NCBI GenBank assembly: GCA_010031635.1 | Contig: RGZI01000010.1 | Coordinates: 1 to 32,887 of the forward strand | Direction of reading: 5' to 3' | From: Actinomycetota bacterium | GTDB taxonomy: Bacteria > Actinomycetota > Actinomycetes > Nanopelagicales > Nanopelagicaceae | Length of the DNA: 32,887 bases | Shown: positions 29,711 to 32,584 of the stretch, piece after piece | Layout: the number at the start of each line of letters is the position of its first letter | How positions within the stretch are numbered: position 1 is the first letter of the stretch | Notes under the pieces: model-generated | Told to the model about the DNA's origin: nothing | The model's database searches: none | Seen by the model: only the letters and a program-made list of their open reading frames with translations | Program-made: the position numbers and the translations under genes

Positions 29711-29714
29711 CATA

Positions 29715-29736
29715 GGTAGGGATCTCCCTACCTTTT
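29715..29736 (+). terminator. Rho-independent terminator after fabG-fabI
   Basis: GGTAGGG ATCT CCCTACC perfect 7-bp stem plus TTTT, 5 bp after the fabI stop. Confidence 0.85.
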
Positions 29737-29743
29737 ACCGCAT

Positions 29744-29763
29744 AAAGGACAATATAGGACAAC
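29744..29763. repeat. 10-bp tandem direct repeat (AAAGGACAAT / ATAGGACAAC)
   Basis: AGGACAA occurs twice with exact 10-bp spacing upstream of the repeat-protein gene. Confidence 0.5.
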
Positions 29764-29836
29764 TTTTTATCGAAACGGTGCGAGAATCTTCCCTTAATAG
29801 CTTGGACTAGCTCAAGTTATAACTAGGGGAGTTTTT

Positions 29837-31798
29837 TTGAAATTTCAAAATACCAGGAAACGATCTCGCACTAATTGCGTCAGGATATTCTCTTCCCTAC
29901 TAATTTTTCTTTCTTTTATTCTCCCAACTTCACCAGTTGCATATGCGGTTTGTCCGGGCCCAACAGCAGAAACCTGGTTGCCTGATGGGACTTTAAATCC
30001 AGCGCTTCCTCCCCAAATTGACGCATATGTAGCCTGCGTAGAGGCGGAGAACCGAGCAAGGTATGCAGAAAACGCAGCAGCTGATGCTGCAGCAGCGGCC
30101 TCATACCAGGCGCAAACCCAAGCGGCTGCACAAGCGGAAGCGCAAGCAGCAGCACAAGCAGCTGCTGCAAAGGAAGCAGCTTCGCACAACGCAAAAGATG
30201 TCGCTCAAATTGCTTCACTAACAGACGAGGTCAAAAAATTAAGCGAGGAATTATCGGCTCTGAAATCCAAACTGGCAGAACAAACAATTATCGCTGAGAA
30301 AACTAAATCTCAGGCAGCCGAAATCGAAAAACTGCAACAATCTTCAAAAAGTAATGATGAAAAATTTACTGAAGCTAATACAAGGTTAACTGAGGCAAGT
30401 AAAAAGATTACTGAGTTGCTTTCAAAAGTTACCTCTACAGAGGCCGAAAAGCAGGAGTTGATCACTGCAAAATCTAAAGAAGCCACAGTTGCTAATATCG
30501 CCAAAATAGCTGATGTGAGCGCAACAGTTGAGGATTCCAAAGGTGTCAAAGTTAGTGCTATCTCCGCTGTCGATTCATCAGGTAAAGATGTTAAAGATGG
30601 AGACGGAAAGGTTGTTTTGCTTGCACCAATAGTAGGCAATGATGGACGAGCCATCAGAACTGCAGATGGGCAAGTGGCTCGTGCTTCCCTGGCAACAACT
30701 TCAAGTGGAGAAGTATTAATAGCGAGTAGCAAGAAAAAAAGTTCAGCCCCGGTAATTGTGATGAATGTTCTATCTGGAGATAATCAGTTACTACTAGGAC
30801 CAGATGGAAAACCTTTAACCACCGCACCAGTTATTAAATCTGGAAATCTTGTTTTCGTTGATGGCAATGGAACTCCAATTATGGTTAAGCCAGTTCTTGG
30901 ACCAAACGGTCAACCAGTTTTGCATGATGGCAAAATTTTGATGACACAGTTGTTAACGACCGGGTCAAATGAAGCATTATTAGATTCATCAGGGGCTCCC
31001 TTGATGATGGTTCCACTTTTGGAATCAAATGGGGTTCCGGTAAAAGCCGGAAATGGAAAAGTTGTTTACGTGCCACCAGTTCTAAATTCAAAAGGAGTAG
31101 TCATCATCGAAGCAAATGGTTCACCAAAATTGGCGCAGCCATTAGCAGATAATGTTGGAAGCATTGCTCTAACTCCAGATGGACAACCATTTGTTGGTCA
31201 ACCACTTGTCACGGATTCAGGTGCAGAGATTCAATTTAAAGGAGCAAATATATTTGTCGGCGCAGTGGGTATGCCGGTCGTGAGTTTCACGGGCAAATCA
31301 GTGAAAAGTGTTGAGGGGTCCAATCTGCAATTTAGTTACAACGGAACAATTGTTGATCAAGATGGCAAGAAATTTTTGGGAACAGACGGACGCGAGATAT
31401 TAATCAACAGTCGTGGGCTGCTATTGAATCCAGCTGGCGATCTTTTGCTCGATCGTAAAGGTAAAGCCGTACGGGTTTCTGAAACTGGAATAATCGTCGA
31501 TGGAAATAGCAAAGAGATTCAATCTTTAGCGGGAAAAGCTTTGACCATTAGTTCAAATAATAAAGTTATTGCTATCAAAATAGCCAGCAAAGAAATTTTT
31601 GCTCCTAATGGTAAAGCTGTCCGAGTTGCACTGAATGGACAATTATTTGATGCAGATGGGTTCCAAATTTTGGCTAGTAATGGAAATCCGATTTACGTGG
31701 ATTCAGTTAAGAAATCATTGGTAGATAGTGCTGGCGGGGCAATCAAGGTAGGGACTGGACAGAAACTTGTTGGCAAGATCGGGAAGGCCACAAACTAA
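29837..31798 (+). CDS. Secreted Ala/Gln-rich coiled-coil protein with Gly/Asn-turn beta-type repeats; function unknown
   Basis: TTG start with SD AGGGGAG; signal peptide (RKRSRTNCVRIFSSLLIFLSFILPTSPVAYA|VC); Ala/Gln/Lys/Glu helical region aa ~68-215; periodic DGK/NGQ-type turns aa ~249-635. Confidence 0.9.
   Translation: MKFQNTRKRSRTNCVRIFSSLLIFLSFILPTSPVAYAVCPGPTAETWLPDGTLNPALPPQIDAYVACVEAENRARYAENAAADAAAAASYQAQTQAAAQAEAQAAAQAAAAKEAASHNAKDVAQIASLTDEVKKLSEELSALKSKLAEQTIIAEKTKSQAAEIEKLQQSSKSNDEKFTEANTRLTEASKKITELLSKVTSTEAEKQELITAKSKEATVANIAKIADVSATVEDSKGVKVSAISAVDSSGKDVKDGDGKVVLLAPIVGNDGRAIRTADGQVARASLATTSSGEVLIASSKKKSSAPVIVMNVLSGDNQLLLGPDGKPLTTAPVIKSGNLVFVDGNGTPIMVKPVLGPNGQPVLHDGKILMTQLLTTGSNEALLDSSGAPLMMVPLLESNGVPVKAGNGKVVYVPPVLNSKGVVIIEANGSPKLAQPLADNVGSIALTPDGQPFVGQPLVTDSGAEIQFKGANIFVGAVGMPVVSFTGKSVKSVEGSNLQFSYNGTIVDQDGKKFLGTDGREILINSRGLLLNPAGDLLLDRKGKAVRVSETGIIVDGNSKEIQSLAGKALTISSNNKVIAIKIASKEIFAPNGKAVRVALNGQLFDADGFQILASNGNPIYVDSVKKSLVDSAGGAIKVGTGQKLVGKIGKATN
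30038..30481 (+). repeat. Low-complexity region encoding Ala/Gln-rich helix and coiled coil
   Basis: AENAAADAAAAASYQAQTQAAAQAEAQAAAQAAAAKEAA encoded by repeated CAAGC/GCAGC units, then heptad-like LTDEVKKLSEELSALKSKLAEQ. Confidence 0.75.
30581..31243 (+). repeat. Protein-level 21-residue repeat block (13+8 turn spacing), ~10 units
   Basis: Turn glycines at aa 249, 257, 270, 278, 291 and 345, 358, 366, then 386, 399, 407, 420, 428, 441, 449, 462, 469, mostly alternating 13 and 8. Confidence 0.75.
31316..31744 (+). repeat. Protein-level ~24-residue repeat block (9+7+8 turn spacing), ~5 units
   Basis: Turns at aa 494, 503, 510, 518, 527, 534, 542, 551, 566, 575, 592, 601, 608, 615 (NGTIVDQDGKKFLGTDGREILIN / SRGLLLNPAGDLLLDRKGKAVRVS / ETGIIVDGNSKEIQSLAGKALTISS ...). 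Confidence 0.65.
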
Positions 31799-31839
31799 TC
31801 AATTCTCTGCTAATTCAGGCTCAAATTGGATTAAAGGGT

Positions 31840-31987: not shown

Positions 31988-32584
31988 ATCAGCGCAGAAC
32001 CCCGCATCAACGATCAAATCCGAGTTGCTGCTGTTCGATTAATTGGACCAAATAGCGAACAGATCGGAATCGTCGCAATAGCTGAGGCGATTCAAATGGC
32101 AATTGATGCAGATCTAGATTTAGTCGAGATCGCACCGGAAGCTGATCCACCTGTTTGCAAAATTATGGACTTTGGAAAATTCAAGTACGAGATCGCTCAA
32201 AAAGCGAGAAGTGCGCGAAAGAACCAAACACATGTTTTGATTAAAGAGATGAAGATGCGTCCAAAGATTGATACGCACGATTATGAGACCAAGAAAGCTC
32301 ATATCGAACGTTTCCTTCGCGGCGGGGACAAGGTCAAAGTGACGATGATGTTTCGCGGTCGTGAGCAAGCTCGTCCGGATACCGGTTATCGCTTATTGGT
32401 GAAACTGGCAGAGGATGTAGTTGATTGCGCAACTGTTGAGTTTGCACCAAAACTTGATGGCCGCAACATGGTGATGGTTCTAGCGCCTACAAAGCGCAAG
32501 AACGAAGCAGTTGCTGAAGCAAGAGCAGCTAGACAAGCCGCTCAAAGTTCAGTCGAGAATTCAACCCAGAATTCACCGGAATAG
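31988..32584 (+). CDS. infC: Translation initiation factor IF-3 with ATC start codon
   Basis: ATC at 31988 opens (M)[67 protein letters not shown], the full IF3-N domain, 5 nt after SD AGAGGAG. The track ATG at 32096 would delete much of IF3-N. Confidence 0.92.

Follow-up and report, generated by a model that had tools for sequence, protein, structure and literature searches.

A predicted secreted protein of acI actinobacteria that joins a constant C-terminal repeat domain to varying N-terminal parts

Our analysis of a 32,887-nucleotide stretch of DNA (the window, a contig from a draft genome of the Nanopelagicaceae) reveals that a gene lying between fabI and infC encodes a selected, lineage-restricted and modular protein, exported as judged from its sequence, which carries a constant repeat domain. 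The C-terminal repeat domain was previously undescribed, and related bacteria join it to different front ends. A paralog in the same genome, and the conserved secreted neighbor of that long paralog, extend the picture beyond what a first reading of the sequence alone (the sequence-only reading) could see. We favor, with moderate confidence, a modular secreted fiber in which the constant C-terminal rod would either assemble the protein or hold it non-covalently on the envelope, with the N terminus displayed.

A selected gene inserted between fabI and infC

The coordinates, TTG start, and final residues given by the sequence-only reading all match the sequence. The following features define the gene and its surroundings.

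29837-31798, + strand: open reading frame of 653 aa with a TTG start, ending in KLVGKIGKATN
29826..29831, + strand: Shine-Dalgarno-like GGGGAG, 5 bases 5' of the TTG start (from sequence; identical in congeners G002 and G003)
29711..31815, no strand: approximate extent of the segment missing from the empty site of congener G004 (fabI-infC comparison)
29716..29731, no strand: perfect inverted repeat with arms GTAGGGA and TCCCTAC around TC (GTAGGGATCTCCCTAC), then CTTTT, lying after fabI and before the gene, within the inserted segment

The open reading frame is a real gene under purifying selection. Its coding status is supported by a whole-gene dN/dS of ~0.07 (dN 0.081, dS 1.15) between the window (genome G000) and the orthologous gene of the congener G002, and an alignment of the start region shows that G002 and G003 share this start and the GGGGAG. 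The same pair of orthologs shows a fast-evolving signal peptide (dN 0.46), a constrained coil and first repeats (dN ~0.04), and a distal C-terminal part that is the fastest-evolving portion of the mature protein (dN 0.11). Identity is 93% in the head (aa 38-68), 92% in the coil, and 81% in the distal C-terminal part.

The gene had been described as sitting among housekeeping operons, and the suggested inspection of the fabI-infC locus shows it to be a clean insertion that separates two genes which otherwise adjoin, with presence and absence varying within the window's genus. The congener G004 lacks the gene: its fabI stop lies almost directly before the infC leader, and over 320 bases that leader shares 97% identity with the window's. 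The junction is also empty in genera g4, g10, and g16, where fabI is directly 5' of infC. Hence, the gene and its upstream inverted repeat represent an insertion at a conserved junction. The inverted repeat could be aligned in four gene-carrying congeners and is absent from the empty site of G004; it may be the terminator of the fab transcript, and a scan for consensus terminators did not list it. Downstream, the infC leader is nearly identical in congeners and matched no Rfam family, and the probable start of infC itself is an ATC codon (ATCAGCGCAGAACCCCGCATC) that follows GAGGAG and lies 5' of the listed ATG at 32096 (window positions 31990-32100).

Such clean presence and absence at one site within a genus could reflect a fiber derived from a phage or mobile element and carried as cargo at the junction. 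We regard this origin as very remote, since searches of viral contigs and phage records found no relative of the domain, the PHROGs matches are weak and of coiled-coil type only, no integrase or phage gene was seen among the neighbors, and the position of the long paralog is conserved within genera.

A predicted export signal, a small head, and a helical segment

29837..29947, + strand: signal peptide, aa 1-37, predicted cleavage between AYA and VC (from sequence; fast-evolving, with the remainder constrained)
29948..30040, + strand: small head, aa 38-68, with cysteines C39 and C67 (from sequence)
30041..30190, + strand: Ala/Gln-rich segment, aa 69-118, probably helical, without a heptad signal (from sequence and periodicity)
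30191..30502, + strand: heptad coiled-coil-like segment, aa 119-222 (period 3.45)

The sequence-only reading had proposed secretion and a helical stalk, and both proposals are borne out. The predicted signal peptide has a recognizable basic n-region, a hydrophobic core (IFSSLLIFLSFILP), and a c-region (SPVAYA, followed by VC). In the short head that follows, C39 and C67 could form a disulfide. Residues 69-222 include no Gly and no Pro, and Ala accounts for 26 of the 50 residues of aa 69-118. The heptad-like periodicity of aa 119-222 (period 3.45) was equaled by none of 1,000 shuffled sequences, whereas 743 of 1,000 were as strong as the Ala/Gln part (aa 69-118), where the signal is not significant. 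Of the earlier description of an Ala/Gln helix with heptads, the helix remains probable throughout and the heptads stand only in aa 119-222. The end of the coil (NTRL.EA.KKITEL) is recognizable in other genera. Matches of the protein to Tropomyosin and SMC were set aside as reflecting the coiled coil.

A repeat domain confined to four genera

30509..30739, + strand: first beta repeats, aa 225-301, found in the short paralog type (alignment A2, AF2 model)
30740..31276, + strand: core of the conserved domain, aa 302-480, about eight 21-residue repeats (alignment, periodicity, AF2)
31277..31795, + strand: distal conserved domain, aa 481-653, with a turn spacing of ~8 residues (alignment, periodicity, profile match)

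The core (aa 302-480) follows the consensus xP(V/L)LxxxGxPVLxxxGxPhhh. In aa 301-480, the 21-residue period lies above the 95% level set by 500 shuffles for Gly, hydrophobic residues, and Pro, and beats all 500 for the first two. The relative L061 has periodicity peaks at 21, 42, 63, and 84 residues and an extra tandem duplication of 84 aa (4 x 21) in its domain. The regular repeats noticed at first sight are therefore upheld; their extent is 429 aa (225-653) rather than the ~390 first estimated.

About 350 aa of this C-terminal domain align with few gaps across 22 sequences from several genera (alignment A2), with 35 invariant columns and conserved Gly, Asp, and Pro positions. By its sequence the domain is an undescribed family, to which the window protein belongs by the ~350-aa alignment and the conserved Gly, Pro, and Asp. 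The protein, left without a family by the sequence-only reading, has no match above cut-off in Pfam, NCBIfam, or PHROGs, and the C-terminal domain likewise has no curated hit in any of the three. Our literature search found no paper on it.

An initial search recovered homologs in three genera of Nanopelagicaceae, and a profile search then found the domain in four genera (g1, g4, g6, and g10), in 15 of the 201 genomes searched for the order. The same search over 396 genomes of the class and 398 of the phylum returned only members already known. Among the genomes searched, the domain is confined by these sequence matches to four genera of the window's own family (acI, Nanopelagicaceae). A GTDB scan gave 21 loci, with the complete genome of strain IMCC26077, described as acI-C1 (PMC5301498), represented among them. 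One candidate relative (G055) was dismissed as a chance match; its sequence reads as a prolyl-oligopeptidase-type protein. Two records that carry the same Nanopelagicaceae genes have titles that are probably misassigned: Bifidobacterium breve (LE-05nov19-349; L047/L055) and Candidatus Fonsibacter lacus (WB5_2A_028; L050/L053).

The predicted fold of the repeat domain

The AlphaFold and Foldseek checks suggested in the sequence-only reading were both run, and the AlphaFold2 (AF2) model agrees with its beta-rich repeat domain. AF2 modeled aa 225-653 (429 aa) confidently as an elongated beta structure (pLDDT 89.9, pTM 0.84; pLDDT 92.3 for a 105-aa piece), with very short strands recurring every 21 residues; we call the model elongated because of this strand pattern and because it overlaps with no compact fold. 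A disordered tail without orthologs, which would have spoken against a structured domain, does not fit this confidence or the selection on the orthologs. In the PDB, Foldseek turned up no solved structure whose overall fold is comparable (TM ≤ ~0.2), and no significant match for the 105-aa piece (best TMq ~0.22, E >0.2); a search of viral models also returned no significant match. Hence, the structure gives no functional analogy.

The beta rod could also be an artifact of the prediction, the region being a flexible low-complexity tail or having another fold, such as a beta-propeller, a scenario that we find quite improbable. The domain profile matches designed Cake repeat proteins in the PDB (E ~1e-8), which we take to be beta-propellers, and a period of 42 is twice 21. 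The match is driven by repeats, and we rejected a propeller because the model has a TM of 0.12 to the PQQ propeller 3hxj. AF2 also has a documented bias toward beta-solenoids for repeat sequences (PMC11795689), and the beta-rod fold is thus provisional. The repeat units average just 20% identity to one another, so the model is independent of near-perfect repeats and the bias is a smaller, yet remaining, concern. The strong conservation across genera, with invariant Gly, Asp, and Pro, and the low dN/dS argue further against a flexible tail. The most specific version of our proposal, a beta-rod fold new to the PDB that would serve sortase-less acI as a non-covalent envelope module with exchangeable displayed N termini, seems to us unlikely to hold in all its parts.

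Exchange of N-terminal parts and orientation of the protein

Comparison of the relatives shows a constant C-terminal domain and an N-terminal part of four kinds. The coiled-coil kind occurs in the window, L024, and L048; the long paralogs have Cys/Thr/Pro-rich arrays with 24-38 Cys before the domain; L061 and L062 have collagen-like GXY stretches of 10-13 triplets; and the giant gene of L031 has Vgb/NHL propeller repeats and Ig domains, then the coil. In G001, at the fabI locus itself, the gene's upstream DNA, signal peptide, and head are unlike the window's, and the two sequences start to match again inside the Ala/Gln coil; this 5' replacement looks like an N-terminal exchange. In G003, the contigs of two loci (L030 and L031) both run out at one and the same domain residue and share 149 identical bases, which suggests near-identical paralogs collapsed in assembly, or gene conversion. 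As a consequence, the L031 gene is visible only up to where the domain core begins. The window's own genome has a long paralog as well (G000:C142, L023). Directly upstream of the long paralog in g1 lies a PF06241 gene, Castor/Pollux-like and ion-channel-related (L023:4986-6938), and in g10 an open reading frame similar to it in size and N terminus precedes the long paralog (L035:5625-7637).

The modular swapping and the elongated model are consistent with a fiber or envelope protein. The opposite polarity, in which the C-terminal beta rod would be the exposed ligand-binding or adhesive tip of the fiber and the N-terminal helix would hold the protein to the envelope, must be taken seriously as a rival, since between orthologs the coil changes more slowly than the distal C-terminal part. 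That pattern counts against C-terminal anchoring and fits an exposed tip, and tandem duplications such as the 84-aa one of L061 are frequent in adhesive repeat arrays. Among paralogs, however, it is the C-terminal domain that is constant and the N terminus that is swapped, the usual pattern of anchor or assembly domains, and we consider the opposite polarity doubtful.

A secreted neighbor of the long paralogs

All 13 long-paralog loci (13/13; genera g1, g6, and g10) adjoin a gene for a secreted protein of ~550 aa that matches neither Pfam nor NCBIfam. In g1 and g10 the two genes converge and their stops are separated by 0-10 bp; in g6 they overlap and run in the same direction; and in G001:C36 the neighbor lies 140 bp downstream. 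Next to the giant gene of L031 there is likewise a relative, and next to the copy at G001:C18 a fragment of one. No such gene adjoins the short-type gene of the window. The wider family of ~550-600-aa secreted proteins (e.g., L023:9939-11585) is strikingly expanded for genomes so streamlined: several Nanopelagicaceae genomes, 1.3-1.9 Mb in size, each carry ~20 copies, with 21 counted in the complete IMCC26077. At its C terminus the neighbor protein has a conserved Cys tail, ..C.KGK..KKV....PKCPAGFKKK (e.g., L023:9939-10043). This tail occurs in ~17 proteins of the window's genome (G000), is common to many secreted proteins of differing length, and is possibly a sorting or wall-binding tag.

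A partner that abuts the long paralogs at every one of these loci, in either orientation, together with a signal peptide and no anchor motif, raises the possibility of a released matrix or scaffold protein of the extracellular space that is paired, at least in its long form, with the ~550-aa protein. But the short-type genes, including that of the window, have no adjacent partner, and planktonic cells with small genomes would presumably profit little from releasing a large protein. Release as a scaffold is, in our judgment, improbable.

A proposed fiber with a constant rod and a displayed front end

In the fiber that we favor, the protein would be exported by Sec and begin with a short, cysteine-paired head; the helical stalk may oligomerize it, and the C-terminal part is predicted to form a rod of ~21-residue beta repeats. 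Evolution would keep this rod constant and swap the parts N-terminal to it. By analogy with the choline-binding array of wall-binding repeats, the rod could serve for assembly or non-covalent attachment to the envelope, and the variable N-terminal part could be displayed outward, mediating interactions with cells, particles, or phages. The protein may be an adhesin or lie at the surface, although it has no anchor motif and no characterized homolog.

The acI actinobacteria, with their very small genomes, rank among the most abundant bacteria of fresh water, and their surface coat is little known. A selected, lineage-restricted, module-swapping secreted domain is a candidate for their contact with phages, grazers, and particles, and the second large Pfam-less secreted family beside the long form is a further candidate for such contacts.

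Comparison with known systems

The protein does not resemble the LPXTG class of sortase-anchored proteins, as neither the C-terminal motif, nor a hydrophobic helix, nor a sortase was found; on the first two the sequence agrees with the sequence-only reading, which saw no C-terminal transmembrane helix and no LPXTG. Sortase (PF04203) had no match in the window's draft genome, with control genomes positive, which is weak evidence as the draft is 85% complete. A genome without sortase would make the missing LPXTG uninformative and would point to another route of retention, if any.

A flagellar identity was also considered. All 22 members (22/22) match FlgF (TIGR02490) below its curated cut-off (best 1.4e-14). 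In the window the match (6.8e-7; 29 bits, where the cut-off is 178.5) covers a weak FlgF-like stretch of ~70 aa near the C terminus (aa ~578-647, within the distal part). We rejected FlgF/FlgG because the rest of FlgF is absent and a profile built from the C-terminal 94-104 aa retrieves no flagellar structure from the PDB.

Trimeric autotransporters and the Scl/Bcl proteins are surface fibers with coiled-coil or collagen-like stalks. The likeness lies in a beta-structured domain that carries exchangeable stalks, either coiled coils or GXY stretches; the window protein differs in having no YadA anchor, LPXTG, or known head domain, and C-terminal homology was not detected. The features that bear on a trimeric assembly are the heptad signal of aa 119-222 and the collagen-like stretches of the relatives. 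The RHS/YD repeats, found also in teneurins and TcC shells, share with our domain repeats of ~20 residues, Gly turns, and successive short strands. RHS-repeat proteins were found by Foldseek through local 3Di similarity, with the best E of 2e-7 but a TM of 0.08; no closed shell is implied, and no RHS/YD profile of Pfam or NCBIfam matched the window protein or the 22 relatives.

The choline-binding proteins (LytA/CbpA type) are modular and secreted: their N termini vary, their C termini hold a constant array of beta-hairpin repeats of ~20 residues each, and they need no covalent anchor. A beta-solenoid built of hairpin repeats is also described in PMC4471590. The repeats of the window protein differ, being 21 aa long with two xxxG turns and, unlike choline-binding repeats, without a conserved Trp/Tyr in their consensus; the choline- and cell-wall-binding repeat profiles of Pfam matched neither the window protein nor its 22 relatives. 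What the window protein has in common with choline-binding proteins is the overall plan: constant C-terminal repeats, variable N-terminal parts, and no covalent anchor motif.
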